In this document: positions 17,827 through 37,814 of the stretch, piece after piece
How positions within the stretch are numbered: the stretch's first letter is position 1
Layout of the letters: each line of letters starts with the position of its first letter
Source: a virus
Virus record (IMG/VR): IMGVR_UViG_3300007351_000481
Location: 1 to 57,741 of that record
DNA: 57,741 bases
Direction: 5' to 3' (one strand)
Position numbers and translations under genes: made by a program
Notes under the pieces: generated by a model
Told to the model about the DNA's origin: nothing
Databases searched by the model: none
What the model saw: the letters and a program-made list of their open reading frames with translations, nothing else

Positions 17827-18591
17827 ATGGTCCGGACCGTCGCCGACTACCTGAAAATGCTCTGGGCCTTGATGCCGCGCGGCCGGGCCTGGTCCCGCGA
17901 CCAGTCCTCGGTCATGAACCAGGTCCTGCACGCCCTGGCCGAGGAACTGGCCAGGGTGGACTCGCGCGCCGCCGAGCTTTTTTCCGAACGCGACACCCGG
18001 CAAGCCTTCGAGCTGCTGCCCGAGCACGAATACGATTTGGGCCTGCCTGACGAGTGCTCCGGTGAAGCTGAAACCATCACCGAACGCCGCCGGCGGGCTC
18101 ACGCCAAGCTCATCGCCCTGGGCGGCCTGCACAAGCAGTACTACATCGATTTGGCCTCGGCCCTGGGCTACACCATCGCCATCGAGGAATTCACGCCGTT
18201 CTGGTCCGGCGTCGGCCTCAGCGGCGACCCGGCCGGCGACCAGTGGGTCATCTTCTGCTGGAAGGTCAAGGTCTATTATCTCAGCGGCCAGATCATCTGG
18301 CTCCAGTCCGGCGCCGGCGAATCCGGCGACCCGATTTGCTACGTTCCGGCCGCGGACAGCCTGGTCTGCGTGCTCCAAAAATACAAACCGGCCCACACCC
18401 GCATTTTGTGGGAATACGTCGGCCCGGCCCTTGATCGTTCATTCAGCCGGGCCTTTGACGCCATCCCGGCCGACGAAGAATGGTGGCTGGACGGGGCCTT
18501 TGACCGGGCCTTTGCCACGGCCTTTGACGTTTACTTTGGAGGCGCCTTTACCCGGGACGCCTTCGACGACGCCTTTAACCATCCCGGTTAA
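17827..18591 (+). CDS. DUF2313 baseplate protein (Mu gp48-like) with repeat C-terminus
   Basis: 254 residues. Its start, DYLKMLWALMPRGRAWSRD, is the DUF2313/YmfQ signature, and LLPEHEYDLGLPDECS and ERRRRAHAKL fit the family. The last ~60 residues repeat short units such as FDRAFATAFDVYFGGAFTRDAF, probably a fibre-attachment or trimerisation extension not found in Mu gp48. Confidence 0.85.
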   Translation: MVRTVADYLKMLWALMPRGRAWSRDQSSVMNQVLHALAEELARVDSRAAELFSERDTRQAFELLPEHEYDLGLPDECSGEAETITERRRRAHAKLIALGGLHKQYYIDLASALGYTIAIEEFTPFWSGVGLSGDPAGDQWVIFCWKVKVYYLSGQIIWLQSGAGESGDPICYVPAADSLVCVLQKYKPAHTRILWEYVGPALDRSFSRAFDAIPADEEWWLDGAFDRAFATAFDVYFGGAFTRDAFDDAFNHPG

Positions 18592-18609: not shown

Positions 18610-19170
18610 ATGGCTGACACCCAAAGAACCAGGGCCGCTATTCTGGCCCTGTTCGCCGACAACACCACCGGCCAGATCAGCGCCCAGGACCTGCGCGACT
18701 TTGTCGTCACGGTCATGGAGTCCGAATTCGCCAACCCCGGTGACTTCTGGAAACAGCCGGACAAGGCTAACCTAGCCACCGGCGACACGGCCAAGGGCTG
18801 GATTGACTACTCGTGCCTGATCGACTCCGGCTGCTCCTTCGGCAACGCCCTGGCCCTGACCCCGTCCAACACCTGGCGGCCGGCCAACGCCTCGCAAAGC
18901 GTCTGCCAGCCGTGCCTGGGCCTGGCCCTGGGCTCCTACGCCAGCGGAGAATCTCAAGCCCAGGTCCTAAGGCGAGGCCTGATCTACCACAGCGCCTTCT
19001 CGGCCTCGTTCGCCGGCAAAATCGGCCGCCCGGTCTACCTGGCCAGCGCCAACTCGGTCGGTTCGATCACGGCCAGCGTGCCGACCAATTCCGTTGTGCT
19101 CGGCGTGATCGCGGACGATACCAAGGGTAAATGGTTTTTCGACCCGGAATGGTCGGTTAGGGGTTCGTGA
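18610..19170 (+). CDS. tail fibre-region virion protein
   Basis: 186 residues. The N-terminal ~35 residues (TRAAILALFADNTTGQISAQ) form a helix common at the start of phage tail fibre and appendage proteins. The rest is beta-rich, with VYLASANSVGSITAS near the end. An AAAGGAGG site lies upstream. Located after the baseplate, so probably part of the adsorption apparatus. Confidence 0.55.
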   Translation: MADTQRTRAAILALFADNTTGQISAQDLRDFVVTVMESEFANPGDFWKQPDKANLATGDTAKGWIDYSCLIDSGCSFGNALALTPSNTWRPANASQSVCQPCLGLALGSYASGESQAQVLRRGLIYHSAFSASFAGKIGRPVYLASANSVGSITASVPTNSVVLGVIADDTKGKWFFDPEWSVRGS

Positions 19171-19185: not shown

Positions 19186-19824
19186 ATGCACCGCACTGAA
19201 GGCGCCAATTTCGCGGCCGGCAACCTGTTTTCCGACGGGCCGCCTGGCACCACCGTCGAAGAGGATTGGCTTAACGCCGTCCAGGAGGAATTGGCCTACG
19301 TCATCGAACAGGCCGGCCTGACCCTGAAGACCGCCGCCACCGAGTCCCGCACGCAGCTCAACAGCGCCTTGAGAGCCCTGTTTATACAGGGGACGCGAGG
19401 GGCTTTGGTCTACCGGACGGCGTCTCAGTTGCTGTCGGACGCCGTCAATACGGCCTTGATCTGGTCCGTGGCTTCTTATGACACGGACACGTGCTGGGCC
19501 GTCGCCAATCCGACGCGGTTGACTGTCCCCTCGGGGGTGACCAGGGTCCAACTGTTTGGGAACGTTCAGTTCAACCAGAACGCCACGAATTTTCGCTTCA
19601 TTGGGTTTTACAAAGGAGGGGCAGCCGGTTACGGGTTCTCGGGTCTCCAGGTCCAAGCAGCCAACGGGGTTGGTACGTACCCTACCGTCTTGAGTGTTGT
19701 GTCTTCTCCACTAACGGTCGCCGCTGGAGAATATTTTGAGCTGTACGCACAGCAGAACAGCACGGGCAATCTCGGCGTTGCCGCTACGACCGGGACCTGG
19801 TTCGCCATGCGTATCTTGCAGTGA
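19186..19824 (+). CDS. tail fibre protein with C-terminal jelly-roll-like domain
   Basis: 212 residues. The first ~80 residues (GPPGTTVEEDWLNAVQEELA) are a fibre-attachment segment widespread in phage fibres. Residues ~85-212 resemble a C1q/TNF-type jelly roll: TRLTVPSGVTRVQLFGNVQF, then NFRFIGFYKGG, then a final TGTWFAMRILQ strand. This is the best candidate for the receptor-binding part of the virion. GC is lower toward its end, as often seen for host-range genes. Confidence 0.7.
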   Translation: MHRTEGANFAAGNLFSDGPPGTTVEEDWLNAVQEELAYVIEQAGLTLKTAATESRTQLNSALRALFIQGTRGALVYRTASQLLSDAVNTALIWSVASYDTDTCWAVANPTRLTVPSGVTRVQLFGNVQFNQNATNFRFIGFYKGGAAGYGFSGLQVQAANGVGTYPTVLSVVSSPLTVAAGEYFELYAQQNSTGNLGVAATTGTWFAMRILQ

Positions 19825-23246: not shown

Positions 23247-25994
23247 CTAACTTACTGCCTTTAAATTCACAGTCGGCTTAATCGCCCTCGCCTTTCTCAT
23301 GGCCGCGCCCGCGTCATTTTCCCTCCCCACCTTTTTTAACCAGTCCCCGTAAGCGGCCCAGGCTTGGTAATCTGCCGGGTTGGCGGCCAGGTAGATTACG
23401 TAGGCCTTCAGCCCTTCCTCGATCCGGCCCAGGCCGGCTTTGAGGTCGCCTAGGCGCGGCAGGAAATGATCGTACTGGTCGGTCTTCGCCATAGCCGCGC
23501 CGATCTCGGTCAAGCCGCCCTCGACGTCGCCGGTTTTGAGCAGCACCAGGCCCAGTTCATAGCGGAAGGCGTGCGCCTCCGGATTTACCTCAACCAGCCG
23601 CCTGTATTCAACCGCTGACTCCTCGTTGCGCTCGACGTATTGCAGGGCCGTAGCTAGACCCCAGCGGGCCTCAATCCGCTCGGGATACAGGCCGACCGCC
23701 TCCTGGAGTTTTTTCAGGGCCGCCGCGAAATCCTTTTCGTCCCGTCCCAATCGTTGCGCCTCCTCGATTAGTTCGTTGTACCGAATCTTTTTGATCGTCT
23801 CGGGCGATTCTTCTTTTTCTCGGCGCAGGGCCTCGTCAATGGCCCGGTCCCGGGCCTCGGTCGCCTTGGCCAGAACCTCGGCCGCCCTCTGGTCCTCCGG
23901 ATTTTCCCTCAAGGCCCGTTGAGCGTCCAAAAGCGGGTGAGCGAAGTTGCCGCGTTCGAGATACTTTTCCGCGTCGGACAGGTCCACCGGCGCTTGATTC
24001 GGCGGCGCCAGGGCTTCCACCCCGCGCGCCCGGTAATCTTTGAGCAGACCCAGCGACGTCTCGTAATCGCCGCGCAGGGTCTCGACCGCGGTCTTGGCCG
24101 CGCTCAAGGCCACCCGGCACCGGGTTGTCCGGGTCAACAGGTCGTCCTGGTTGCGGACGATTTCAGCCGTGGAAAACTTGCCCCTGGTCTTAAAGGCCCT
24201 CGAGGCAATGGCCCGGTTGGCCCCCACCATGGATACGTTGATCAAGGGCATCCTGGCCGCGGCCTGCTGGGCGGCCATGGCGAACTGGTAGTTTTTGTCC
24301 AGCAGCGTTTTCAAGCCGGGCCGTCCGGCTTGCCGCGCCTGTCTTTCCAGCCCCCGGCAGGTGGCCAGGCCCAGCCGGGCGTTTTTCCGGATTTCCTCCA
24401 GGGTCTTCAATTCCCGCTCGAGGACCTCGACGGCCCGCTTCGCCAACTGGTCGCCGTCCGGCGCCGGCGTCAGCAACGGCTCCAGCTGGTCGCGGTCTAT
24501 AGGCCGCTGGCAGTATTTTTCTACGGCCTGCCTCAAGGTCATTTGCTTGGCGCCCCGAATTTTGGCCCCGCCTTCCGTGGCGTTGAAGATCGTGGCCCGG
24601 GTGTTGGCGATCATGGTCTCGAAAACGGTCAAAAACGAAGCCAGCCCGACATTGGTTAACACCGGCTCGCCGAAATAGCCCGGCGTCCTGACCACATGAC
24701 CCATTGAATGTCCGTCGGGATATGCGGTCAGGTGGCTCCGGGGATCATCCACCCGCCACCTGATCTCACCGTCCGGCCGGACCTCGACGCTCCCGGCCGT
24801 GTCGGCCTGGTCAAAATGGCTGCGGTCGGTCAGGGCCAGGTCCTGGCCGATCATGATGATCGGGTCACAGCCCAGGTGCCGGGCCAGGGCCAAGGCCGTG
24901 TGCGCCACTGAGCCGCCTTGTTCCAAAAAACCCTTGCCGGCCAGGAGTCCCGAGACCGAATCTTCCAGGCCGGGCACGGGCGTGGCCACGATGAATTTGG
25001 GGCCGCGATATTCTTTGAGCAGCCGGGTGTAGGTGCGGTTGAGGCAGACCAGGGGGACGTCTCCGTCGGTCAGCCCGTCCAAGTGACTCCAGTTGACCTC
25101 GCCGAAATCCACGGTGCAGATGAAGTCAGGTTTGACGCCGTAGGCCAGGAGCGGCCGCAGGGCCTGGGCCACGGCCACGATCACCGCCCGGCCCTGGACC
25201 TCCCGCAGCACGTGGATGTTTTTAGCCAGGGACGGCCCGGTGCTGACCGTGATGGCCGGCGCGTGAGCGAACAGCCCTTCGAGCTCGGCCACGCCCCGGT
25301 GCCGGATGACGTAGGGCAGGCCCTGCACGTCGTTCTTGGCCAGTTGCAGCCCGGCCCCGACCACCGTACCGGTGTTGCAAGCCATCTGGTTCAAGGCCTC
25401 AGTGGTGTACCTGGTTAATTCTTCGTAAACGCCGCGCTTGGCCTTGGTGTAACCCTCGATGATCAGGTTCCACTGGTTGACCACGTTCAGCGTCTCGGCC
25501 AGACCCAGGTGGTAAGCGATCTCCTCTTTGCCCGGCGCAGAGATCATCAGGGACCAGTCCAGCAAATGCCGGCGGTAATCGTATTGCGCCAGGGCCCGGC
25601 GGATGATCTCGGCCGCGGGCTCGATGACGATGACCCGGTGGCCGCGTTCCATTTTTCGGAGTACGATCCGGACCAGGTAGCCCAGGCCAAACCCCACGGC
25701 AATGGTCGCCGCGTCTTGCGGCGTCGGGTGAGCCTCGGCCTCGGCCTTGGGCTTGATCCACGGGTCTTCCAGGTCGTAGGCCGCCGTCTTGCGGCTGCCG
25801 TCATGGATCAGCAGGTTGGGCGAACCGTTGTTTGACCGGATGGACTCGACCCAGTCCGCGCCTGGCTCGCTTTGAATCCAGGCGGCCAGGTTGGGGTTGA
25901 CCTTGGCCAGGGCGGCCAAATTCCGCGCCAGCATCTTTTGCCCCCGGCGCTCCGGCCCGGAGTTTTTGCTTGCTTTGTTGCGTCCTTTTCTCAT
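23247..25994 (-). CDS. Maf-like glycosyltransferase (DUF115/MptE-like) with C-terminal repeats
   Basis: 915 residues. The centre (about 240-480) is the DUF115/MAF core: VSTGPSLAKNIHVL, VIVAVAQALRPLLAYGVKPDF, FICTVDFGEVNWSH, and IMIGQDLALTD. Maf proteins transfer nonulosonic acids such as pseudaminic or legionaminic acid to flagellin Ser/Thr. The last ~250 residues contain TPR-like helical repeats (ARWGLATALQYVERNEESAV) that may bind the acceptor. It is the final gene of a sugar operon and is placed one base after the GNAT gene stop. Acceptor could be host flagellin or a virion protein; the sequence does not decide. Confidence 0.85.
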   Translation of the reverse strand: MRKGRNKASKNSGPERRGQKMLARNLAALAKVNPNLAAWIQSEPGADWVESIRSNNGSPNLLIHDGSRKTAAYDLEDPWIKPKAEAEAHPTPQDAATIAVGFGLGYLVRIVLRKMERGHRVIVIEPAAEIIRRALAQYDYRRHLLDWSLMISAPGKEEIAYHLGLAETLNVVNQWNLIIEGYTKAKRGVYEELTRYTTEALNQMACNTGTVVGAGLQLAKNDVQGLPYVIRHRGVAELEGLFAHAPAITVSTGPSLAKNIHVLREVQGRAVIVAVAQALRPLLAYGVKPDFICTVDFGEVNWSHLDGLTDGDVPLVCLNRTYTRLLKEYRGPKFIVATPVPGLEDSVSGLLAGKGFLEQGGSVAHTALALARHLGCDPIIMIGQDLALTDRSHFDQADTAGSVEVRPDGEIRWRVDDPRSHLTAYPDGHSMGHVVRTPGYFGEPVLTNVGLASFLTVFETMIANTRATIFNATEGGAKIRGAKQMTLRQAVEKYCQRPIDRDQLEPLLTPAPDGDQLAKRAVEVLERELKTLEEIRKNARLGLATCRGLERQARQAGRPGLKTLLDKNYQFAMAAQQAAARMPLINVSMVGANRAIASRAFKTRGKFSTAEIVRNQDDLLTRTTRCRVALSAAKTAVETLRGDYETSLGLLKDYRARGVEALAPPNQAPVDLSDAEKYLERGNFAHPLLDAQRALRENPEDQRAAEVLAKATEARDRAIDEALRREKEESPETIKKIRYNELIEEAQRLGRDEKDFAAALKKLQEAVGLYPERIEARWGLATALQYVERNEESAVEYRRLVEVNPEAHAFRYELGLVLLKTGDVEGGLTEIGAAMAKTDQYDHFLPRLGDLKAGLGRIEEGLKAYVIYLAANPADYQAWAAYGDWLKKVGRENDAGAAMRKARAIKPTVNLKAVS

Positions 25995-25995
25995 T

Positions 25996-26580
25996 TTATT
26001 TCTCTTTCCTGGCCCAATCCGCCCGGAGCAGTCCGTAGGCGATGATGCTCACGTATTCGCCGTCCAGAAACATGCCCTGCCTGAAAACCCCTTCCTCTTT
26101 GAAGCCTAGTTTCAAGGCCAGGTTGCGCATGCCGGCGTTGGTCGCGGCCGTGCCGGTCCAGATGCGGTTGAGATTAAGCCGCCGGAAGCCGTGCTTGATC
26201 AACAATCGCCCGGCTTCGTACCCGATTCCTTGACCCCAGTACTTGCTTTCGCCGATGATCACGGCGAACTCGGCCGACCGGTAAATCCAGTTGATGGATT
26301 GGAGTGAGATGTTGCCGATGTGGCGGGTTGCGTTCATCGGCTGACCGTCGGGCCGGACCTTGGCCTCAATGGCCAGCACCAGCCGGTCGTCCGCTTCCAG
26401 GCCGGCCAGGAAGGCCCCGAGTTTGGCCTCGGTGTACGGAAAAAGCCCGTGGCTGTTGAATTTGGTTACCTGGGCGTCGTGAAACCAGCGCTGGTAATTG
26501 CCGTCCGGATTCAGGGCGTCTTCCCGCGTGAACGGCCGGAGAATGATCCTTTCGGTTTCATACATGGCTGCCCCGTTCAT
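25996..26580 (-). CDS. GNAT N-acetyltransferase (RimJ/L-like), probable sugar N-acetyltransferase
   Basis: 194 residues. GNAT features: ERIILRPFTREDA, then VIIGESKYWGQGIGYEAGRL (acetyl-CoA loop Q-G-x-G-x-E), then NAGMRNLALKLGFKEEG. In nonulosonate clusters such an enzyme (PseH or LegH type) acetylates the 4-amino sugar. ATGA overlap with the dehydratase gene upstream. Confidence 0.83.
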   Translation of the reverse strand: MNGAAMYETERIILRPFTREDALNPDGNYQRWFHDAQVTKFNSHGLFPYTEAKLGAFLAGLEADDRLVLAIEAKVRPDGQPMNATRHIGNISLQSINWIYRSAEFAVIIGESKYWGQGIGYEAGRLLIKHGFRRLNLNRIWTGTAATNAGMRNLALKLGFKEEGVFRQGMFLDGEYVSIIAYGLLRADWARKEK

Positions 26581-27560
26581 TGCGGCGCCTCCTCGAGCAT
26601 TTCGCGCAACTCCTCCACGGTCAGATACGGCCCGTTGCGGTCGCTGGTGTAGGACCAGTCCAAATCCGGATTACGCCTGGCCGGCTCCCGGCTCGGCCGG
26701 ATGACGTAGGCCTCGCCCTCGTCGGTCGTGTCGCGGCTTTCCTCGGCCAGGATCAGGCACTCGGCCAGCTTTTCCCCCGGCCGGATGCCGATGATTTCCA
26801 TTTCCGCGCCCGGCGCCACGGCCGCGACCAGGTCAACCACCCTCATGCTGCGCATTTTCGGGACAAAGATTTCCCCGCCCTCCATGCGTTTTACGCAGCG
26901 CAACAAAAAGGCGACCACTTGCGGGAGGGTGATCCAGAACCGGGTCATGCGGACGTCCGTGACCTGGACCCGGCCCGTCTCCCTGGCCTGCTTCTGGAAT
27001 AGGGGCGCCACCGACCCCCGGCTGCCGACCACGTTACCGTAGCGGCAGCAGGAAAACCTCGGAAATCGATGCAAGCCAAGGCCTTTGCTGTAGATGTTGC
27101 CGTGAATGAACAGCTTTTCGGCGCAAAGCTTGGTCGCCCCGTACAAATTGACCGGCGCCACGGCCTTGTCCGTGGTCACGTTGAGCACCCGCTTGACCCC
27201 GCAGTCCACGGCCGCGTTGATGACGTTCTGCGCGCCCAGGACGTTGGTCTTACAGGCCTCCTCGGGGTCGTTTTCACAGGCCGGCACGTGCTTCATGGCC
27301 GCGGCGTGAAAGACCACGTCCACGCCCTCCATGGCCCGTTTCAGCCGTGGCCCGTCCCGCACGTCGCCGATGAGAAAGGCCACGTCCGTCCGTGGTGCGG
27401 CGGGCAGGTCCTGCTTCATCTGCCACTGCTTGAGTTCGTCCCGTGAATAGATGCGCAGGCCTCGGGGCGGATGAGGCATAGCCAGCAGCTTGTTCGTCAA
27501 GGCCTTGCCCAGTGATCCCGTGCCGCCGGTGATCAAAATTTCGGTTTCGTCCCAGTCCAT
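26577..27560 (-). CDS. PseB/LegB-type UDP-sugar 4,6-dehydratase (SDR family)
   Basis: 327 residues. Rossmann motif TGGTGSLGKAL, SRDELKQWQM, HAAAMKHVPACENDP, the catalytic YGATK and GNVVGSRGSVAPLF are all typical of PseB-like UDP-GlcNAc 4,6-dehydratases. It catalyses the first step of bacillosamine, pseudaminate or legionaminate synthesis. Start and stop overlap neighbours (TAATG upstream, ATGA downstream), so it belongs to the operon. Confidence 0.88.
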   Translation of the reverse strand: MDWDETEILITGGTGSLGKALTNKLLAMPHPPRGLRIYSRDELKQWQMKQDLPAAPRTDVAFLIGDVRDGPRLKRAMEGVDVVFHAAAMKHVPACENDPEEACKTNVLGAQNVINAAVDCGVKRVLNVTTDKAVAPVNLYGATKLCAEKLFIHGNIYSKGLGLHRFPRFSCCRYGNVVGSRGSVAPLFQKQARETGRVQVTDVRMTRFWITLPQVVAFLLRCVKRMEGGEIFVPKMRSMRVVDLVAAVAPGAEMEIIGIRPGEKLAECLILAEESRDTTDEGEAYVIRPSREPARRNPDLDWSYTSDRNGPYLTVEELREMLEEAPQ

Positions 27561-27754
27561 TACGGTCTGCCCTCGCTAAGTTTTTCGGTCCTCTCGTTTA
27601 TTTGCCGGTCGCAGTCCTTGATTTTCTTCAGGATGGCCCGGGCTTCCTCGGGTTTTTCCCGGAAGGCCAGTCGCACCAGGTCCATCCAGTGTTTATTGTT
27701 TTGCTCCCGGATGGCCTGGATGTCGTCAATCAGGCGAGCGTCCGCCGGATTCAC
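27560..27754 (-). CDS. small conserved protein of nonulosonate clusters
   Basis: 64 residues from a GTG at 27754 in a GTGA overlap with the synthase. Helical: QNNKHWMDLVRLAFREKPEE then ILKKIKDCDRQINERTEKL. Short proteins of this pattern occur beside NeuB-type synthases in flagellar glycosylation loci, but no activity is known to me. A longer frame start exists upstream inside the synthase gene and is unlikely. Confidence 0.65.
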   Translation of the reverse strand: MNPADARLIDDIQAIREQNNKHWMDLVRLAFREKPEEARAILKKIKDCDRQINERTEKLSEGRP

Positions 27755-28590
27755 GGCTTTACCGTCGGTCGCCGGCCCGTGAGCGGATCGGTCCGCAGGT
27801 GCGCCAGGTCCCGGTCGGTCGGCGCGCACGATCTGTCCGGGCCTTTATCCGCCGCCCTGAAATCTTTTACCGCCCGGATCGCCCTTTGAAGTTCGCTGGC
27901 GGGCCAGCAATGCCCGTGCCCGATTTCCCGCCCCTGGCCGTCGTCCAGGTCCAAATGCACCTCGATCATCCGCGCGCCCAGGCTCGCCGCGCCGCAAAGC
28001 ACGCCGATCGAGGCCGTGTGATCGGACCAGCCGGCCGGCACGGGACGAAAGGCGCTCTGCAAATAGGCTATCCGCCACAGGTTGGCCTCTTCCGGCTTGG
28101 CCGGGTACCTGGACAGGCAATGCAGGATAAAGGTTTTTTCATGTCGGATACGTTCCGGCAAAAGGTCCAGCGCCGTTTTGATTTCATCGTTCGTGGCCAT
28201 GCCGGTGGACAGGATCAACGGCTTTTCCCTGGCCGCGCAGGCCAAGATCAAATCGTCCCAGAGAAGCTCATAGGAACCGATCTTGAAAAAATCCACGTGC
28301 GGGGTCAGCCGGTTCACCGCCTCGAGGTCAAAAGGCGTGCAGCCAAAGGTCAGGCCAGAGGCATGCGCAGCTCGCGCCAATTTCGGCAGCCATTCCGGCG
28401 GCAGTTCCCGTTCGTGCATTTTGTTTTGGGTTTCCTGGTCGCCCCATAGCCGGTCCGCCTTGAACAGCTGGAACTTGACCCCCCAGCAGCCGATCTCGGC
28501 CGCGGCCGCGATTAAACGCCGAGCCCGGTCCAGGGACTGGTTGTGGTTGGCCCCGATGTCCGCGATGAACTTGATGTCCCCGACCGTCAT
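27751..28590 (-). CDS. NeuB-type N-acylneuraminate/nonulosonate synthase, short form
   Basis: 279 residues. The NeuB TIM barrel is clear: IADIGANHNQSLDRARRLI, AEIGCWGVKFQLFKAD, then FFKIGSYEL, LSTGMATNDEI, LHCLSRYPAKPEEANL and WSDHTASIGVL. It joins phosphoenolpyruvate to a six-carbon amino sugar. The usual C-terminal SAF (antifreeze-like) domain of ~60 residues is absent, which is unusual. ATG at 28590 in an ATGA overlap with the aminotransferase. Confidence 0.87.
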   Translation of the reverse strand: MTVGDIKFIADIGANHNQSLDRARRLIAAAAEIGCWGVKFQLFKADRLWGDQETQNKMHERELPPEWLPKLARAAHASGLTFGCTPFDLEAVNRLTPHVDFFKIGSYELLWDDLILACAAREKPLILSTGMATNDEIKTALDLLPERIRHEKTFILHCLSRYPAKPEEANLWRIAYLQSAFRPVPAGWSDHTASIGVLCGAASLGARMIEVHLDLDDGQGREIGHGHCWPASELQRAIRAVKDFRAADKGPDRSCAPTDRDLAHLRTDPLTGRRPTVKP

Positions 28591-29903
28591 CGCAGTTCCC
28601 TCCGGTTTTCCCAGGCCTTGATAAAGGCGTTGGTCAAGTCGTCGATCTCGGACTTCTTTATCCCCGGCGCGATCAGGCGGTGCAGAAACAGTTTGTCCCG
28701 CCACAGCCACTCGGCCGTCGGGCACAGGCCTTCCTGATAAAAATCTTCCTTGCCTTTTAGGGCCGGATGCTCGCAGGCGCGGAACAAAGGCATCAGGTAA
28801 ATCGGCTTGATATAGCCACAGCTCAGCGATCGGCCGCCGCCCAGTTCGGCCTTGACCGCCGCGATGAAGCGGTCCCGATGCAGGCCGTCGGCCTCTTCGG
28901 CCCGCCATTTCATGGCCTGGACGTAAAATGTGTGGCGGCACCACTCCCGGACGTTCGTGAGTTCAATGGCCGGCAGTCCAGCCAGGGCGCGCTCGATCCG
29001 CCTGACGTTTTCGGTCCGTTGATAAATGAGTTCGGTGATGCGTTCGAGTTGCGAACCGATGATGGCCGCCTGGATTTCCGTCATTCTCAGGTTGTAACCG
29101 ACCAGGCCGACCAGAAAGGGATCGCCGGGCCACTGGGCCGCGTCGTCCATGCCGTTGTAGACCGCCTCAGCGTGGTTGGCCAGCAGGCGGCAGCGCAGGG
29201 CCAGTTTTGTATCATTGGTCGCCAGCAGGCCGCCTTCGCCGCAGGTTAGGTGCTTGCCCTGGTTGAAGGAAAAGACGCCGATGTCTCCCAGCGCGCCGGC
29301 GTAGTAGTTTTTCAGGTTTCGCACCTGGCCGTCTTCGGGCGGCGGGGACCAAAACGAACCGACAGCCTGGGCCGCGTCCTCGATGACGTACAGGCCGTAC
29401 TGTTCAGCCAGGGCGCGGACGGCCGGCCAGTCATGCGGCTGGCCGAACAGGTCAACCACCAGGATGGCCTTGGTCCTGGGCGTGATCTTCTTTTCGATTG
29501 CCTTCGGGTCCAGGCAGAAACAGTCCGGCTCGATGTCGGCGAAGACCGGCGTCGCCCCCCAGATCAGCGGCGCCGTGGCCGAGCAGGTCATGGACCAGGG
29601 CGAAACGATGACCTCGTCGCCGGGCGAAAGGCCAATCGCCCCGCAGGCCACGATCAGCCCGCTGGTGGCGCTGTTCAAAGCCAGGACGTGCCTAACCCCG
29701 ATTTTTCCCGCCCAGGTTTGTTCCAGGGCCTGGACCTCGGGGCCACCGTAAAACTCGGCCACCCAGTTGCCCCGGTACCCGGATAAAAGGCCGCGCTCCA
29801 GCACCCGCAGGGCTGCTTGTGCATCCGCGCCGCTGATCGGGTTGGGTTCCGGGATGTCCTTGTCTCGAATCGGCCGGCCGCCGTTGATCGCCAGTTTACC
29901 CAT
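28587..29903 (-). CDS. DegT/DnrJ/EryC1 sugar aminotransferase
   Basis: 438 residues from ATG 29903 with a GGAGG site. PLP enzyme features: NSATSGLIVACGAIGLSPGD, VEDAAQ-type IEDAAQAVGSFW, and the lysine in FSFNQGKHLTCGEGG. It would aminate the keto-sugar made by the dehydratase (PseC or LegC type). Its start shares a base with the stop of the upstream oxidoreductase (TAATG). Confidence 0.9.
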   Translation of the reverse strand: MGKLAINGGRPIRDKDIPEPNPISGADAQAALRVLERGLLSGYRGNWVAEFYGGPEVQALEQTWAGKIGVRHVLALNSATSGLIVACGAIGLSPGDEVIVSPWSMTCSATAPLIWGATPVFADIEPDCFCLDPKAIEKKITPRTKAILVVDLFGQPHDWPAVRALAEQYGLYVIEDAAQAVGSFWSPPPEDGQVRNLKNYYAGALGDIGVFSFNQGKHLTCGEGGLLATNDTKLALRCRLLANHAEAVYNGMDDAAQWPGDPFLVGLVGYNLRMTEIQAAIIGSQLERITELIYQRTENVRRIERALAGLPAIELTNVREWCRHTFYVQAMKWRAEEADGLHRDRFIAAVKAELGGGRSLSCGYIKPIYLMPLFRACEHPALKGKEDFYQEGLCPTAEWLWRDKLFLHRLIAPGIKKSEIDDLTNAFIKAWENRRELR

Positions 29904-30889
29904 TATTTTCCTCCCTTTAAATTTTCCAGGATTTGATGAACCGCCGCGGCGTCTTCGCCGGTGCACCAGAGCGGCGCGCCGCGCTCGATATGGTCAAGAC
30001 CGTTTTGCAGCAGGTTAAGCAGGGCCGTGCCGAGCTCGGTCGGCCGGGTTGATCCGTGCCCGGGCAAGGTCAAGTAGTCGCCGTAGACCGGCTCCGGCTC
30101 GGGCTGGTATGTCGTCACTTGCAGGCCGTGGTCGCGAAACACCACGCGACCCCTTTCCGCTAAAATGTCTATTTCAAAGACCGAATATTTCCGGCCGTCC
30201 GCCGGCGTCAGGAAGACGTGCGGGCAAAGGTCAAAGGCGGCGTGAACCGCCCAGGTCGGGTCTTCCCGGGCGCGATCTTTCTGAAAGTAAGCCAAGGGCG
30301 AAAGGACCTGCCCGCCTTTAAATTCCCCGAACAGAAACCTCGTCAGGTCGAAAGCGTGGCAGCCTTCGTGGACTAGGCCCCGCGTGTAGATGACCCGGCA
30401 TTGCCAGACCCGGCCCAGTGCCCCGTCGTCGCCCGCGGAGATGTCCTTCCGCAGCCGCTGGACCTCGGGGTCGAACCGGCGGATGTAGTCCACCAGCAGC
30501 GGAATATTTTCCTGCCTGAACATCCGGGCGATGATTTGGGCCTCGCCGGCCGACTCGCCCAAAGGCTTTTCCGTGATGATCAGCTTGGGGCTGTGCTCGT
30601 TGGTCGCCCGCATCAAGACGTCCAAATGCGTGTTGGTGGGCGTGGCCACGATCAGGATGTCGGCCCGGGCCGCTTCCTCCAGGTCGCAAGCATGGCCGCC
30701 CCACCTGGCCGCGGCCGCCCTGGCCTTGGCCGGATCAACGTCCACGAAAAAGATCGGCCCGATTCGCGGGTGCGCGTACAGGGCGTGGGCGTGGGTCAGG
30801 ATTTTGGGTGACTCCGGGCTGTCGTACTTAAGCGGCTTCAAGGCGCCGATGGACCCGCACCCGATGACCGCGGCCGAATAGCTGGTCAT
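29903..30889 (-). CDS. Gfo/Idh/MocA-family oxidoreductase
   Basis: 328 residues. NAD-binding start AAVIGCGSIGA, ILIVATPTNTH, and ITEKPLGES (the EKP motif with catalytic Lys). A HEGCHAFDLTRFLFGE segment carries the second active-site His. Genes of this family, such as ptmF in Campylobacter, are found in flagellin nonulosonate loci and may modify the sugar or its substituents. Confidence 0.87.
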   Translation of the reverse strand: MTSYSAAVIGCGSIGALKPLKYDSPESPKILTHAHALYAHPRIGPIFFVDVDPAKARAAAARWGGHACDLEEAARADILIVATPTNTHLDVLMRATNEHSPKLIITEKPLGESAGEAQIIARMFRQENIPLLVDYIRRFDPEVQRLRKDISAGDDGALGRVWQCRVIYTRGLVHEGCHAFDLTRFLFGEFKGGQVLSPLAYFQKDRAREDPTWAVHAAFDLCPHVFLTPADGRKYSVFEIDILAERGRVVFRDHGLQVTTYQPEPEPVYGDYLTLPGHGSTRPTELGTALLNLLQNGLDHIERGAPLWCTGEDAAAVHQILENLKGGK

Positions 30890-30890
30890 G

Positions 30891-31703
30891 TCAACCCTCT
30901 CCCGGCGTCTTGCGCCGTATGAATTTGTTGATCGCCGCCAGGTGCGGCTTTCGACGCAGCAGGGCGATGACCTGCTCGGCCGAGGCGTCCCATGGGAAAA
31001 TTTCGCGAAAAATTCTGTCCAGCAGAGTCAGGTCCGCCGGCTCGTCCAGAGTCAAGCCCAGGTCGGGCCAAAACATTTCCGGCGGCGCGCTCCAGTTGAC
31101 CAGGAGCCAGGGTCCGCGTTCAGGGTGCTGGGTGATGTTCCAGCCGACGTGGGACCGGTGCGGCCCCCGCACCACGGCGTCGATGCGTTCCAGGGCCGCG
31201 CGGTCGTAGACCTGGAGGTCGAACCCGTCCGGCCAGGTCCGCGTCAGGACGTTGGAAACGTAGACTTGTGCTTGGGCTTGGCCGGCGTTGAGGCGGTAGA
31301 GCCTGATCAGGTGGTCGATGTGGGCGGGATCGATCAGCGGGCAGTCGGCCGTGACCTCGACTATGGTTTCAATCTCATGGGCCCGGGCCGCCTCAAGCAC
31401 GCGGCTGAAGACGTCTTCCGGCTCAGGCCGGCGACAAACCAGGCAGCCCAGGCGCTCGGCCGATTCCTCAATGGCCTGGTCCTCGGTCTCGGTGGTCGTG
31501 GCCACGATGACCTGGTCAACCAGGTTGGCCCACTTGACGCGCTCGATCAGCCGCTCCAGGGCCGGCTTCCCGGCCAAGGGCAGCAAGACCTTGCCCGGCA
31601 GACGGGTCGACCCTATCCGGGCCTGGATAATGACGGCCGTCGATCCTGACGGCTCTGCCTCGTTTTTTGTGGTGGGATTATTCGCGATGTCTGCGCCTGT
31701 CAT
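30891..31703 (-). CDS. SpsF/KdsB-type cytidylyltransferase
   Basis: 270 residues from ATG 31703 (a TTG at 31727 is the longer option). Sugar nucleotidyltransferase start: VIIQARIGSTRLPGKVLLPL, then VIVATTTETEDQAI and EVTADCPLIDP. The family charges nonulosonic acids or KDO with CMP. First gene of the operon, about 46 bases from its predicted transcription start, with one base between its stop and the next start. Confidence 0.85.
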   Translation of the reverse strand: MTGADIANNPTTKNEAEPSGSTAVIIQARIGSTRLPGKVLLPLAGKPALERLIERVKWANLVDQVIVATTTETEDQAIEESAERLGCLVCRRPEPEDVFSRVLEAARAHEIETIVEVTADCPLIDPAHIDHLIRLYRLNAGQAQAQVYVSNVLTRTWPDGFDLQVYDRAALERIDAVVRGPHRSHVGWNITQHPERGPWLLVNWSAPPEMFWPDLGLTLDEPADLTLLDRIFREIFPWDASAEQVIALLRRKPHLAAINKFIRRKTPGEG

Positions 31704-31755
31704 GGTCTCCGCCACAACAAGCGACAAAGGGCCTGCGCCCCGGCTGGACGTAAGA

Positions 31756-31785
31756 ACACTACCCGAAATTATGCCTGGCTGTCAA
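31756..31785 (-). promoter_or_regulatory. promoter of the glycosylation operon
   Basis: On the minus strand TTGACA (31785-31780) is followed after 18 bases by TAGTGT (31761-31756). A perfect -35 with a moderate -10, well placed for the cytidylyltransferase gene. It would allow expression from the integrated prophage independent of the late genes. Confidence 0.55.
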
Positions 31786-31855: not shown

Positions 31856-31886
31856 AGCGAGACAAGACCTATTGCCCTATCTCGCT
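31856..31886 (-). terminator. terminator downstream of the tRNA end
   Basis: On the minus strand AGCGAGA (31886-31880) pairs with TCTCGCT (31862-31856) and is followed by a run of T. After integration it would sit just after the restored tRNA-Pro gene, giving it a terminator. It also ends leftward integrase transcripts. Confidence 0.65.
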
Positions 31887-31894
31887 GAATTTAC

Positions 31895-31944
31895 TGGTCG
31901 GGGCGGTCAGATTTGAACTGACGGCCTCCTGCTCCCAAAGCAGG
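31895..31944 (-). other. attP core, 3' half of tRNA-Pro(UGG)
   Basis: On the minus strand this is the anticodon arm (CCTGC-TTTGGGA-GCAGG, anticodon UGG), variable loop, T arm (with GTTCAAATC-type loop) and acceptor end with CCA of a bacterial tRNA-Pro. The 5' half is absent, so it is not a functional tRNA. Phages that integrate in tRNA genes carry such a copy to restore the gene. The integrase lies beside it. Confidence 0.9.
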
Positions 31945-32102: not shown

Positions 32103-33152
32103 TTATTTCTCTAACGCAAGCGGTTGGGGTAATTTTTCCAAGGCTTGGCGTTTTTGTTCGTCGAGGAGGTGGTAGTAGACCTCCAAGGTCATGCGCGGGG
32201 AGGAGTGGCCCATGAGTTCGGAGACGGCCTTGAGGTCGGCGCCGGCGCGCAACATCGAAGTGGCGTAGAGGTGGCGGAGGCTGTAAAGGGGCAGCTTGCG
32301 GGTAATGCCGGCCGCCTTCTTGGCGTGGGCCCAGGCCCGGCGGATTTGCTGCACGGGCTGACCGCGGTATTCGATGAGCCAGGTCCGGCCCGTGTGGGCG
32401 GCCTGGAGGCTTTTGACGCCTTCCAGGAAGGAAGGCAGGACCGGCTGCAAGACCCGCTGGCCGTGGGTCTTGGAACGTTGCACCCAGACGCCGCACTGAT
32501 CGAAGTCAACGTCGGCGATCCGGACGGCGAAGAGTTCGGTCGGCCCGGGCCGCAGACCGAGATGAGCAATGGCCCACAAGGCCACCTTGAGGTGCGGCGC
32601 GGCGCGGGCCCAGATGGCCCTGAGTTCGTCTTCAGATGGGGGCGGGGCGGCCTTGGCTTCCCTCTTCTTTTCGGAACGGTATTTTTCAAAGGGATTAAAT
32701 TTAAGACGATCGTGCCGGACGCCCCAGGAGCAAATGCCTTTGCAATAGTCGCGGTAGCGGTTGCGGGTGGCCATGGAGCGGCCCTGTTCCTGGAGCCTGG
32801 AGTCCAGGGCATCGAGGTCCTGCATGGTCAAAGCGGTCACGGGCTTGCGGCCAAAAGCCGGGACCACGTGGGCGTTGAGAAAGTACTCGATGGATTTGCC
32901 GTTCTTCAGGGAAAGCGGCCGGGAATTAAGATAGTGCTGGGCCAGGGCTAGGAAGGTCAAGCCGGCTGCTTGATCGGGATCGGGCGGGGACCAGCCTCGT
33001 CTCTTAGCCTTTTTGCGCTCAAGGTCCCACTGCTCGGCGGACAATTTAGCCTCGGGGCCGCGGCCGAAGTATTTTTTCCTGGGCCGGGTGCGCTGGCCGG
33101 GCAAGTAATATTTAACGTACCAGCGGCCGTCGGCGGTGCGATGGGCGGACAT
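32103..33152 (-). CDS. int: tyrosine recombinase integrase
   Basis: 349 residues, AAGGAG site upstream. N-terminal DNA-binding part with RKKYFGRGPEAKLS, a SAM-like core (~65-165), then the catalytic domain: Arg in LGLRPGPTEL, Lys in RSKTHGQR, His/Arg in YSLRHLYATSML, His in MGHSSPRMT and the Tyr nucleophile in LEVYYH. It inserts the phage at tRNA-Pro. Its stop is about 160 bases from the attP core. Confidence 0.93.
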   Translation of the reverse strand: MSAHRTADGRWYVKYYLPGQRTRPRKKYFGRGPEAKLSAEQWDLERKKAKRRGWSPPDPDQAAGLTFLALAQHYLNSRPLSLKNGKSIEYFLNAHVVPAFGRKPVTALTMQDLDALDSRLQEQGRSMATRNRYRDYCKGICSWGVRHDRLKFNPFEKYRSEKKREAKAAPPPSEDELRAIWARAAPHLKVALWAIAHLGLRPGPTELFAVRIADVDFDQCGVWVQRSKTHGQRVLQPVLPSFLEGVKSLQAAHTGRTWLIEYRGQPVQQIRRAWAHAKKAAGITRKLPLYSLRHLYATSMLRAGADLKAVSELMGHSSPRMTLEVYYHLLDEQKRQALEKLPQPLALEK

Positions 33153-33953: not shown

Positions 33954-34472
33954 TCAGCTTGAACCTGTTTCGTCTAAAGGTATTGTTGATAAATAAGACT
34001 TTCTGTAAATCCAGGGCGGAACCCGGCCGTCATCCGACCAAAGGTTGATTTTTTCAGATTTGGCTTTTGCTTCTAATTCTTTTAATTCCTGATCATTAAC
34101 GGCATATCTTTTATACCACCAGGCCAGGCCGGCCCGAAGGAGTTCGTGGCCAAGGTTGCGGCCGTCGGGCAGGATGATCTCGGCCACGGTCCGGCCGTAG
34201 CGGTCCCAGGTGTTGACCTTGACCGTGACCCGTTTGTCCAGGGCCAGGCCGGCGGTGAAATTTTTGGCTTCCGGACCGAAGGGCTGTTTCATTTCAGGGG
34301 CGTCCACGCCGTAAAGTCTGATGGTCACCGGCTGATGATGTCGCATGACGATCAGGCTGTCGCCGTCCAGCACGGCCACGCAGCGGCCTTTCCAGGAGGC
34401 GGCCTCGGACAAGGCCGGGATTAAAAGGATCAAGGCGGCGATAACAGTTAAGCGCAAAGCGGCCTTGAGCAT
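33954..34472 (-). CDS. secreted thermonuclease (SNase-like)
   Basis: 172 residues. A signal peptide is visible (LKAALRLTVIAALILLIPAL, cleavage near SEAAS). The SNase fold follows: VAVLDGDSLIV, RLYGVDAPEMKQP (catalytic Arg and Glu), DRYGRTVAEI (second Arg), and LLRAGLAWWYKRY. It would cut DNA or RNA in the periplasm or outside. On a prophage it may degrade incoming DNA or help the host take up nucleotides; both are inferences. Confidence 0.87.
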   Translation of the reverse strand: MLKAALRLTVIAALILLIPALSEAASWKGRCVAVLDGDSLIVMRHHQPVTIRLYGVDAPEMKQPFGPEAKNFTAGLALDKRVTVKVNTWDRYGRTVAEIILPDGRNLGHELLRAGLAWWYKRYAVNDQELKELEAKAKSEKINLWSDDGRVPPWIYRKSYLSTIPLDETGSS

Positions 34473-34636
34473 GGCGACCCTCCCCGGGGCAAGATAAGCT
34501 TTCGGGGACCCGCCTTTGAACCGATAAGCGAAACGGACGGGCCTTATTGTAGATAACGCCCGAGGGGACAGCGGGGGTCTTAGGGTTCATGCCTGCTCCT
34601 GGCGGTCAATCGAAAGCCGTAGCTTGCTCATTCCGA

Positions 34637-35389
34637 TCATCTGGGCCGGAGAAACCGGCCGCAAAAAAGATTAGAAAGCTCGGCGTTGTTTTTCTTGCCA
34701 CAGTAGGCGGCTGCGATTTGTCGACCAAAAGGCTTTAATTCGGCATCGTCCACTAGGTTAAGCAAGTCTTGATAGACCTGCATGTGTTCCCAATTGGCCT
34801 TTTTTAGATCAGACATATTGAAATAAAGCTTCATGGCCAAGGCGGTGTCTTCCTTGCCGTATTTATCCACGACCGGGCCATGCAGGAAAAAGATAACGCG
34901 GCGGACTTGATTTGGCCACTTTTGAGCTAAGAGTTGGCAGGATTTAACCAGAGCGGAATCCATTTCCAGGAAAAAAGTTTCCTCGCTCCACATGGATTTC
35001 AGAGTAATAAAAATATCGACATTAATAAGCCCGCTGATATTAATCGTTTCAACGTTGTTTACTCGCAGCTTTTCACGTCTCGACGCTTTATTTATCGCCT
35101 TAATGACTTCTTGTTTTAAAAGCGTTTCATTGTCGGATATTTGTTGGGGTGGTGCGGCTGGAGTCGGTTTGGGCATCGGGGCAGCAAGAGTAGAAGGAGG
35201 CGAAAGGGACGTTTGTTGCGGTAAATCTGCTTGTCTGATTATCATCTGTATCGCGACAACAATCATTAATCCCACCGCAAAAAAACCCCACAAATTGGAA
35301 ATGGTTGGCCGCCCTGTCCCGCAATTCGGACAAATCCAGGCTTGCTTGCTATATCGGGTTCCACACTGCTTACATTTAACCAGGCCCAC
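34637..35389 (-). CDS. zinc-ribbon membrane protein 1
   Basis: 250 residues. The N-terminal zinc ribbon has CKQC and CPNC pairs (residues 6-9 and 20-23), then a transmembrane helix at ~32-50, a Pro-rich linker and a ~165-residue C-terminal domain of unknown type. DNA is AT-rich. It is one of three zinc-ribbon proteins in a row on this strand. Confidence 0.7.
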   Translation of the reverse strand: MGLVKCKQCGTRYSKQAWICPNCGTGRPTISNLWGFFAVGLMIVVAIQMIIRQADLPQQTSLSPPSTLAAPMPKPTPAAPPQQISDNETLLKQEVIKAINKASRREKLRVNNVETINISGLINVDIFITLKSMWSEETFFLEMDSALVKSCQLLAQKWPNQVRRVIFFLHGPVVDKYGKEDTALAMKLYFNMSDLKKANWEHMQVYQDLLNLVDDAELKPFGRQIAAAYCGKKNNAELSNLFCGRFLRPR

Positions 35390-35550
35390 AACGTCCTCCG
35401 TTTAACCGCTATTTCAGTGGCCCAGAGCAGATATTTTTCGGTCTCGGCGTACATGCCCGCGTCCAGGCAGCGTCGGCCCTGGCGCGTCCAATGGCGGCAC
35501 CAGCCTTCAGGGGTGGCGTCGCGGTCAATGTCGTAATTGATAAAAACCAC
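35266..35550 (-). CDS. possible small TPR-like protein or gene remnant
   Basis: 94 residues from GTG at 35548-35550. The first ~57 residues (WCRHWTRQGRRCLDAGMYAE, then a helix YLLWATEIAVKRRTLWAW) look like a real helical protein, but the rest overlaps the start of zinc-ribbon protein 1 by 124 bases in another frame. A truncated gene overrun by its neighbour seems more likely than an intact one. Confidence 0.35.
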   Translation of the reverse strand: MVFINYDIDRDATPEGWCRHWTRQGRRCLDAGMYAETEKYLLWATEIAVKRRTLWAWLNVSSVEPDIASKPGFVRIAGQGGQPFPICGVFLRWD

Positions 35551-35559
35551 GACGAATAA

Positions 35560-36309
35560 TTATGGTTTTTTTATTTCGCTGAAACGTATAATAAATTTAG
35601 GATTCAGCATTGAACCGGCCTCGGTTAAGCTTGCCTCCCTAATAAAATCATTTTCCGACGACAAAAATGATCCGTTAAAAATGACCCTGTCTCCAACTTT
35701 CATATCAGAGACTTTTTTATAAAGGGAAGCACTCTCGGGAATGAGCGTTAAGTCCTGTATGTCAGAAAGCGCATTATTCCAAGTCGCTATATCTATTTTC
35801 CCGCCTTCAAGCCGTATGGTAATATAAGCTTTTTGGTCCGAGGTTGTCCCCATGTGAGCCAAGACTCCAACCCAATTGTTTATACTTCGCTTACCATTTA
35901 ATGTTTCCTTAATGTTTTTTTTCCGCTCTGATCGAACCGAGGATTTCTTTAGTTCATTTGGCGCCTCATTATATTTATTTATCAGTGAAGTAATTCCACG
36001 AACAAAAGCTTGTTGATCTTGTGGAACGGGAATAGCTGGCGGAACTGGCGTTGAAGTTGTTTTTGATTTTTCTCTCTCGGCATCAGCTTGTTGAACGGGT
36101 GGAGACATCTCGTTGGTAACAAGGGTTTTAATAAAGGAAATAATAAATATGCCGGCTAAAAATATTAAAACCCATTTTCCTATACCCATCTTTTTCTTTT
36201 TTGGTTTTTCAGAGACAATTCCTGTTTTCACCGGCGATCCGCATTGTGGGCAAGCCCCGGCCTTATCGCTGATTTCTTTGCCGCATTCCGTACATTTAAT
36301 TAAGGCCAT
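35560..36309 (-). CDS. zinc-ribbon membrane protein 2
   Basis: 249 residues. Zinc ribbon CTEC...CPQC at residues 6-24, Lys-rich KPKKKK then a transmembrane helix (~42-64), a linker, and a C-terminal domain ending VIFNGSFLSSENDF. The C-terminal part resembles a beta-barrel-like small domain. Low GC. Same architecture as protein 1, but their C-terminal domains differ. Confidence 0.7.
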   Translation of the reverse strand: MALIKCTECGKEISDKAGACPQCGSPVKTGIVSEKPKKKKMGIGKWVLIFLAGIFIISFIKTLVTNEMSPPVQQADAEREKSKTTSTPVPPAIPVPQDQQAFVRGITSLINKYNEAPNELKKSSVRSERKKNIKETLNGKRSINNWVGVLAHMGTTSDQKAYITIRLEGGKIDIATWNNALSDIQDLTLIPESASLYKKVSDMKVGDRVIFNGSFLSSENDFIREASLTEAGSMLNPKFIIRFSEIKKP

Positions 36310-36330
36310 AATTATCCCCCTTTGTGGCTT

Positions 36331-36525
36331 TTATTTGCTTAAACCAATAATAAAAAAGAAAAAGAGTATACCCAACCCCAATATAGTCAGGGCGCAGCCA
36401 CAGCCACTCACCCCTTGACCAAAGTCGCCCAGTTTTTTGGCCGTGGAGGGCGCGCCGCAGTGCGGGCAGACCTCGGCCTTGTTGCTGATCTGCCGTCCGC
36501 ATTCCTTGCAGTTGATCAAGGCCAC
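36331..36525 (-). CDS. zinc-ribbon membrane protein 3, small
   Basis: 64 residues, GTG start. The ribbon CKEC...CPHC matches proteins 1 and 2 (all begin with ALI or GLV, then K/N-C-x2-C), and a single transmembrane helix at ~45-61 follows. There is no further domain. It may be a stand-alone member of the family or a stub. Confidence 0.65.
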   Translation of the reverse strand: MALINCKECGRQISNKAEVCPHCGAPSTAKKLGDFGQGVSGCGCALTILGLGILFFFFIIGLSK

Positions 36526-36548
36526 GCCGAGCCCCCCTTTCGGCTCGT

Positions 36549-36584
36549 AGGCGACCTTCCCGGCCCCTTCCGGGGTGGTCGCCT
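36549..36584. repeat. GC-rich hairpin between zinc-ribbon gene and methyltransferase fragment
   Basis: AGGCGACC at 36549-36556 pairs with GGTCGCCT at 36577-36584, and CCCGG with CCGGG inside. There is no T-run, so a plain terminator is unlikely. The outer stem shares GGCGAC/GTCGCC with the CRISPR-like units but lacks GTTTCAATCC, so I do not count it as one. Confidence 0.5.
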
Positions 36585-36596
36585 AAAATGCTTAGG

Positions 36597-37118
36597 TTAA
36601 AATTGAAGCCTTTCGTTCTCCTGCGTCTTACCCGTATCCTTTAAACGAAACGAATAATCCCAAACGACCTCATTGCGAAAGTTTTTTGCACCGAAAACGG
36701 CGTCCTGGAGCAGCTTCAAGTAATGGCTGGCCGTGGGGTCGCAGTGCAGGTAGAGGCCGCCGGTGGATTTGAGGACCCGTTTGAGTTCGACCAGGCGCGG
36801 GGCCATCATGGACAGGTAGGCCAGCATGTCGCTGTGACCGAGCAATTTCCAGTTCGCCTCCATGGCCTGGGCCACGCGGCCCCCCGAGGCCAGGACCTCG
36901 TCGAAGGCTTGGGCCGCGGCCTGGTCCCAGCGCCAGGTATCTTCAAAGGCGCGGATTTGCGCGGCCGACCGAGCGCCGTTGACCTCGGCGAAAAGGACGT
37001 TGTAGTCCTGGTTGCTCTTGAAGGGCGGGTCGAGATAAACCAGATCGACGGACTCATCCGCGATGTAGCGCCGCAGGATGTCCAGGTTGTCGCCGTAGTA
37101 AAGTCGGTTGTCAGTCAT
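36597..37118 (-). pseudogene. truncated DNA methyltransferase (N-terminal part)
   Basis: 173 residues. Start LYYGDNLDILRRYIADESVD and VYLDPPFKSNQDYNVLF show the DPPF catalytic motif of beta-class (N4-cytosine or N6-adenine) methyltransferases, and GGLYLHCDPTASHYLKLL fits. Full proteins run on for 200 or more residues and carry the SAM-binding FxGxG motif in that missing part. The frame stops shortly after NEVVWDY. So this is a broken gene, unlikely to methylate DNA. Confidence 0.75.
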
Positions 37119-37124
37119 GAATTC

Positions 37125-37688
37125 TTATGGCAGCAAGCACCTAGAAAGCAAATTTGGAGTGATTAAGCTTCTGGCATCGCAAACGTCCCAAAGATTTTGA
37201 GAATACTTAGAGACATCTGAGTAGTAAAGATGTACTTGAACGCCAAAATTTTTAACAAATTGGATCGCTGGCACAAAATCGCCATCACCAGTTATAATAA
37301 AAGCCTTATCAATCATTTTTTGGTGTGTGAGCTGAATAAGATCAACAACTAAAAGTACATCTGCGCCTTTTTGCTCAAAAATCGGCGTTCCTTGTTGGTC
37401 GTAGCCCCTGAATATTAAATAACCAAGACGAACTTCAAAGTAGCCATATTTTTTTAGGGCGGTGTAAAATCTTTGAGTTTTTGCAAATCGTTGCGATTCA
37501 TCTCTTGTTGGAGGAGAAGATTGATAAGGCGGACAATCATAATAATATGACCTAAGGAGACTGAAACCAGAAACGATTTCTTTTACAAGCGCCCCATAGC
37601 TAACTTGCATAATATTCAATTTTTTAAATACTTTTCGGGCATAACCACCATCGATAAAGACAGCTGCCTTGCCAGCCTGATTAGACAT
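37125..37688 (-). CDS. NYN-domain (LabA/DUF88-like) putative ribonuclease
   Basis: 187 residues. The PIN-like NYN fold shows three acidic sites: AVFIDGGYARK, KGADVLLVVDLI, and FIITGDGDFVPAIQ. NYN proteins are predicted metal-dependent RNases and some serve in phage defence. It is low in GC and has its own promoter, hallmarks of a moron expressed in the lysogen. A defence role is inferred. Confidence 0.82.
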   Translation of the reverse strand: MSNQAGKAAVFIDGGYARKVFKKLNIMQVSYGALVKEIVSGFSLLRSYYYDCPPYQSSPPTRDESQRFAKTQRFYTALKKYGYFEVRLGYLIFRGYDQQGTPIFEQKGADVLLVVDLIQLTHQKMIDKAFIITGDGDFVPAIQFVKNFGVQVHLYYSDVSKYSQNLWDVCDARSLITPNLLSRCLLP

Positions 37689-37783
37689 AGTTCACCTCAG
37701 ACAAAATAAAAACCCATCGTCAGAACCCCGGAATCCGAAGACCCGGACCAACAATGGGCAGGATAGACTTGTTTGTTATTGTT

Positions 37784-37812
37784 ATTATCGGCACGAACCC
37801 GGTTCCTGTCAA
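37784..37812 (-). promoter_or_regulatory. promoter of the NYN gene
   Basis: Minus strand TTGACA (37812-37807), 17-base spacer, GATAAT (37789-37784). The spacer contains the near-perfect dyad GAACCCGGTTC, a possible operator. Strong match to the sigma-70 consensus. Confidence 0.65.
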
Positions 37813-37814
37813 GC

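Follow-up and report, generated by a model that had tools for sequence, protein, structure and literature searches.

A temperate myovirus genome carries a nonulosonic acid-type pathway joined to a Maf-type glycosyltransferase and may glycosylate its own tail protein

To our knowledge, the Maf glycosyltransferases of known function act on flagellin, and mycobacteriophages, in glycosylating their virions, use glycosylation genes different from those treated here. The present analysis concerns an operon of eight genes at positions 23247-31785 of the IMG/VR virus record IMGVR_UViG_3300007351_000481 (57,741 nucleotides, the whole of which is called the window in the following), in which a nonulosonic acid-type sugar pathway is combined with a Maf-type protein glycosyltransferase. 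Phages editing the nonulosonic acids of their host and phages glycosylating their own particles are already known. In Acinetobacter baumannii, epaA and epaB are likewise prophage-borne genes for nonulosonic acid enzymes, but these only reshape the host-made pseudaminic acid in the capsule and come with neither a de novo pathway nor a Maf (PMC12053666). Mycobacteriophages glycosylate proteins of both their capsid and their tail (Freeman et al. 2023, cited in PMC12619734), where no mention is made of a nonulosonic acid pathway. A search of the open-access literature, which does not prove novelty, found no description of a phage cassette joining nonulosonic acid synthesis to a Maf; phage-encoded protein glycosylation with a whole nonulosonic acid pathway linked to a Maf would be new. 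Based on the results below, we give a probability of about 0.5 to the reading that the cassette serves O-glycosylation of proteins by the phage, with a virion protein, most likely one of the tail, as acceptor.

The eight open reading frames (ORFs) lie on the minus strand and form one tight operon of intact, coupled frames, transcribed in the order cytidylyltransferase (CMPT), oxidoreductase (GFO), aminotransferase (DegT), NeuB-type synthase, a protein of 64 aa, PseB-like dehydratase, acetyltransferase (GNAT) and Maf. An initial annotation of the window had placed eight minus-strand genes here, with which both the frames and the domain searches agree. The same annotation called the genes overlapping; the packing is indeed tight, with adjacent genes sharing 1-4 bp (ATGA, GTGA or TAATG), but two junctions are gaps of 1 bp.

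With the pseudaminic acid pathway (PseB-C-H-G-I-F), the cassette shares the dehydratase, aminotransferase, acetyltransferase, synthase and cytidylyltransferase types, but every score against the PseB, PseC, PseH, PseI and PseF equivalog models falls under its curated cut-off. The dehydratase (26577-27560; PF02719, 1e-91), of the inverting type for uridine diphosphate N-acetylglucosamine (UDP-GlcNAc) 4,6-dehydration, comes nearest (380.5 bits against PseB, cut-off 407.75); its best solved structure is 2gn4, a UDP-GlcNAc C6 dehydratase (4e-85), and the TDKA and YGATK motifs are retained. Where the initial annotation had left PseB-like or LegB-like open, only the former stands, since the LegB model reaches 66 bits versus 380, and LegB was rejected. 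For the pyridoxal phosphate-dependent DegT/DnrJ aminotransferase (28587-29903; PF01041, 2e-79), PseC is the best NCBIfam model, at 198 bits under a cut-off of 423.5. The GNAT N-acetyltransferase (25996-26580; PF13302, 1e-22) matches the PseH model at 4.6e-8, and the cytidylyltransferase (30891-31703; PF02348, 9e-28; ATG start at 31703, TTG at 31727 possible) is of the SpsF/KdsB type, with KdsB-type NCBIfam models scoring best and the PseF model giving only 29 bits. An oxidoreductase of the Gfo/Idh/MocA type (29903-30889; PF01408, 1e-9), whose structure matches are general relatives only (inositol-dehydrogenase-like, 5e-12), is extra in comparison with the Pse pathway.

The NeuB-type synthase (27751-28590, 279 aa; PF03102, 3e-52, 178 bits) is a TIM barrel with the motifs K-F-Q, S-D-H-T and E-x-H kept, and its closest solved relative is SpsE (1vli). 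In comparison with bacterial NeuBs, whose ORFs span 328-405 aa and carry the C-terminal antifreeze (SAF) domain, this domain is absent and an R-DP-DG-RP-like tail remains. The short form is common to 16 viral orthologues, in which a G-H-C(-W) motif and the R-DP-DG-RP tail are conserved. With the legionaminic acid pathway of Bacillus subtilis, the cassette shares the SpsC, SpsD, SpsE, SpsF and SpsM types, but the Sps pathway additionally requires SpsG and has no Maf (PMC7439481). Domain searches detected no PseG or LegG in the operon or in 24 related viral records, in line with the initial annotation, in which a UDP-sugar hydrolase was the one classical step not found. Its broader claim of a nonulosonic acid-type pathway together with a Maf-type protein glycosyltransferase is likewise supported by the family matches, whose scores lie well beyond chance level.

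The remaining small protein (27560-27754, GTG start) is conserved beside Maf or CMPT in the relatives described below. No Pfam or PHROG family was found for it, and an NCBIfam match to IS110 (5e-4, 19 bits, cut-off 140) was taken as chance. PHROGs holds no family for five of the eight proteins (Maf, NeuB, GFO, CMPT and the small protein). A defence-system reading of the operon was rejected, as PADLOC gave no match for Maf, the small protein, NeuB or GFO.

Searches with NeuB and Maf showed that the cassette recurs in other phages. We distinguish lineage A, approximately 40 IMG/VR contigs with a long Maf and the same basic gene order, from lineage B, nine IMG/VR contigs with a shorter Maf (approx. 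610 aa) and a reduced cassette beside terminase and portal genes. Gene presence was counted where the sequence extends 8 kb or more upstream of Maf, which applies to 26 lineage-A loci: either NeuB or a protein termed X3 occurs in 26/26, GNAT in 26/26, DegT in 25/26, PseB in 24/26, GFO in 23/26, CMPT in 21/26 and the small protein in 19/26. X3 (212-218 aa) replaces NeuB where the latter is missing and is also present in all lineage-B loci; by profile comparison and Pfam, it is a reduced NeuB. Both NeuB and Maf carry invariant residues across divergent phages. No tyrosine integrase (PF00589) was detected in the 24 related records, and a serine recombinase in one lineage-B record only. Terminal repeats of 82-127 bp close five lineage-A records, and neither these nor the other lineage-A records tested have a recognizable integrase, hence the cassette is not confined to phages with one.

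The Maf protein (23247-25994, 915 aa) exceeds the PF01973 cut-off of 34.6 with 144 bits (4e-42). It consists of an N-terminal Maf/MptE-like catalytic domain, a helical middle and a C-terminal solenoid of tetratricopeptide repeats (TPR). Its confident AlphaFold model (predicted local distance difference test, pLDDT, 89.7) finds the Maf structure 5mu5 of Magnetospirillum as best match in the PDB (E 1.5e-16), followed by TPR proteins including O-GlcNAc transferase. Catalytic domain and fold are shared with the flagellin-modifying Mafs, whereas the length, the helical middle and the TPR solenoid set the phage protein apart. A catalytic-domain tree places all 29 lineage-A Mafs in one clade (100/100) and lineage B in another, each separate from the 31 bacterial Mafs, to which lineage A is nevertheless homologous. 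When 398 genomes of the phylum of the draft genome to which the window was binned (the bin, see below) were searched with the Maf profile, 57 matched, the bin included, but alignments of the bacterial Mafs cover just the first two thirds of the profile, and the full-length form was not seen in the 397 other genomes. A search of 84,980 bacterial and archaeal genomes gave two weak Deferribacteraceae matches among the matches listed, which does not prove absence, and 50,697 phage records contained no Maf and three distant NeuBs, none covering 80% of the query. The added TPR domain suggests a new acceptor, by analogy with FlmG of Caulobacter, which binds its protein substrate through its TPR domain (PMC7591256). 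FlmG is likewise a TPR-aimed glycosyltransferase using a nonulosonic acid, but it is an unrelated enzyme of the GT-B (glycosyltransferase B) type with an N-terminal TPR domain, is bacterial and has a proven flagellin acceptor (PMC7591256).

Several variants were observed among the relatives (L numbers denote individual loci). The long Maf is split into two ORFs of approx. 460 and 495 aa, corresponding to the catalytic and the TPR part, in L058, L060, L061, L062 and L064. Several lineage-A phages have a BNR-repeat sialidase-like protein (PF13088) between NeuB and PseB (L030, 10863-11966; L036, 6289-7353; L058, 4823-5950; L061, 6377-7456; similar elsewhere). A cluster of approx. 230 aa, X18, lies inside the cassette of L041, L044, L056 and L062 and accompanies the reduced NeuB in the first three; one member was scanned and had no Pfam match. 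The lineage-B loci (L066-L074), upstream of terminase and portal, contain a formyltransferase-like and an extra GNAT-like gene.

A connection to the tail genes emerges from the surroundings of the cassette. In the window, the late tail operon on the plus strand converges on it, with baseplate J (16576-17823; phrog_6, 3e-67), baseplate I (17827-18591; phrog_203, 6e-56), orf186 (18610-19170) and the tail fibre orf212 (19186-19824). The latter has a conserved anchor of 60 aa and a variable C-terminus, and its relatives match tail-fibre PHROGs; orf186 has a decoration-protein-like domain, as its predicted fold, a model of moderate confidence, weakly resembles phage capsid decoration proteins (E 4e-3). 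Both are candidate substrates. Where a lineage-A contig extends far enough downstream, its cassette in most cases converges on the same J-I-orf186-orf212 order, and orf186 is situated 2.6-7.3 kb from the Maf start in such loci. Among contigs of at least 40 kb, Maf is present in 18/18 with orf186 and in 0/9 with the same fibre anchor but without orf186. Consequently, orf212 was rejected as the gene tracking the cassette, being common without it, whereas orf186 does track it.

The window itself forms contig C16 in a draft genome of 3.1 Mb, the bin, and is the complete circle of a temperate myovirus. An exact 99-bp repeat is common to both ends, as expected from an assembled circle or a terminally redundant molecule, and the contig has genes for terminase, portal, head morphogenesis, protease, capsid, sheath, tape measure, baseplate, transglycosylase and holin as well as a primase, a ParB-like protein, a CII-like protein and a tyrosine integrase (32103-33152, minus strand; PF00589, 5e-19). 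Closure and the full structural, lysis, primase and integrase gene set confirm that the operon is phage-borne, as initially annotated. A candidate phage attachment site (attP), recognized from the sequence as the 3′ half of a tRNA-Pro(TGG) gene, covers 31896-31944 on the plus strand. The operon is the final module before attP and convergent with lysis and tail genes. A terminator-like 13-bp stem with a U-tract (31856-31886, minus strand) between integrase and operon suggests that the operon is transcribed on its own, and the cassette probably has its own transcript. The TTGACA hexamer claimed as promoter of the operon does exist 5′ of it (31780-31785, minus strand), but the case for a promoter is weak: its best −10 partner is TAGTGT at an 18-bp spacer, with 3/6 consensus matches, and a promoter scan did not report the element.

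Any statement about the host is insecure, since attP does not match the tRNA-Pro of the bin: the only tRNA-Pro match in the bin, a tRNA-Pro(TGG), has 83% identity to attP, is intact and lies on another contig. The 40-bp core of attP had no match at up to 2 mismatches in the 397 other genomes of the phylum; the exact attP pattern occurred in no viral contig, and in plasmids similarity was at tRNA level only. Comparing the phage DNA with 150 relatives of the bin returned the phage itself and two chance-level 30-bp matches, hence neither a spacer nor a prophage connects it to a host. Because mis-binning of the contig is possible, the flagellin genes of the bin (two flagellin_N genes, on contig C42 only) say little about the true host. 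No flagellin gene is found on the phage contig, and the bin has no other Maf homolog. A separate NeuC/NeuB/nucleotidyltransferase-type locus with a full-length NeuB was observed on contig C68 of the bin (G000, L002); the bin is thus a probable nonulosonic acid producer in its own right.

In the order of reactions that we infer, dehydratase, aminotransferase and GNAT would convert UDP-GlcNAc to a 4-amino-4,6-dideoxy sugar bearing an acyl group, which the NeuB-type enzyme would condense with phosphoenolpyruvate to a pseudaminic- or legionaminic-like nonulosonic acid. Release of uridine diphosphate (UDP) without PseG might be achieved by a host hydrolase, by a synthase accepting the UDP-sugar or by an unrecognized gene. 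The cytidylyltransferase would activate the product as its cytidine monophosphate (CMP) form, the oxidoreductase probably modifies the sugar, and Maf, aimed by its TPR domain, would transfer it to Ser/Thr of a virion protein of the phage; the tail is the likeliest site, with the fibre orf212 or the adjacent orf186 as acceptor. The benefit could be altered adsorption or protection of the particle. We favour this virion acceptor because of the place beside tail genes, the co-occurrence with orf186 and the integrase-less relatives: without a recognizable integrase, re-decorating flagellin in the course of a single infection would gain these phages little, but decorating particles would pay. Somewhat more tentatively, an undescribed, widespread phage group may start from UDP-GlcNAc and, by a shortened route with a SAF-less synthase and no PseG, make a sialic-acid-like sugar of its own, with which it would glycosylate its tail adhesion proteins by means of a TPR-guided Maf that no longer has its flagellar role.

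Several points weigh against a virion acceptor. The acceptor proposed here is a candidate from sequence, and characterized Mafs use flagellin. The cassette of the window is separate from the late operon and located at attP, where genes for lysogenic conversion are usually found. In all of lineage B and in five lineage-A contigs, the cassette precedes terminase and portal instead of lying beside fibres. Missing integrases may reflect other routes to lysogeny, and the link to orf186 may only mark one phage clade, as the tail sequences of phages lacking orf186 are also more divergent.

Lysogenic conversion, in which the prophage operon would glycosylate host flagellin with a new nonulosonic acid and thereby alter motility or block flagellum-binding phages, was the reading preferred by the initial annotation, and we now consider it rather unlikely. 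It agrees with the substrates of known Mafs, with the two flagellin_N genes of a bin devoid of other Maf homologs, and with the window, where a temperate phage with integrase, attP and CII-like regulator has the operon near attP, behind a terminator-like stem and on the strand opposite to the tail genes, the layout of lysogenic conversion. However, relatives without recognizable integrase retain the operon, their cassettes lie beside tail or terminase genes, the contig has no flagellin gene and the true host is uncertain; moreover, the Maf is a member of a viral clade distinguished by the added TPR domain, and no bacterial Maf of the 398 genomes matches it over the full length. The viral Maf clade, the integrase-less relatives and the tail-gene neighbours thus demote flagellin, and modification of the phage's own fibres, mentioned initially as the alternative, has become the better reading owing to tail-gene adjacency and orf186.

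It appears less probable still that the cassette, during lysogeny or infection, glycosylates some other protein or surface structure of the host (pilus, S-layer or envelope protein) and so excludes competing phages. The Shigella phages SfI, SfII and SfIV, in which baseplate J has relatives, are serotype-converting, and in Acinetobacter the prophage genes epaA/epaB turn capsular pseudaminic acid into the 8-epimer (PMC12053666). On the other hand, Maf is a cytoplasmic protein glycosyltransferase and not a polysaccharide enzyme, and the eight genes include no flippase or lipid-linked transferase. Phages also hypermodify DNA with sugars, and a free or CMP-linked sugar made by the operon could serve a non-protein purpose such as modifying DNA or nucleotides or interfering with the sugar metabolism of the host; we regard this as improbable, given that the cassette consistently ends in a Maf-type transferase and that, besides a methyltransferase, no DNA-sugar enzyme was recognized in the phage. 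Decay into functionless cargo, to which the weak promoter and the lack of PseG would fit, is scarcely credible in view of eight open, coupled frames, conservation across divergent phages and the invariant NeuB and Maf residues.

If a virion protein is the target, the cassette would represent a new way to change phage adhesion or to protect the particle and would also supply small enzymes for protein O-glycosylation; with flagellin as the target, lysogenic conversion would gain a new route. The purpose of the antifreeze domain can be tested with the SAF-less synthases.

Minor observations concern the remainder of the phage genome. Two overlapping frames at 42749-44853 match the N- and C-terminal parts of the exonuclease V family phrog_4412, which indicates a frameshift, a sequencing error or a broken gene. 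The short DNA methyltransferase at 36597-37118 matches its families only in part and is possibly truncated. It belongs to a stretch of low GC content (44-54%) between the integrase and the early genes (33954-38700), which also contains a nuclease, zinc-ribbon-like proteins and an NYN-like protein and is probably recent cargo.

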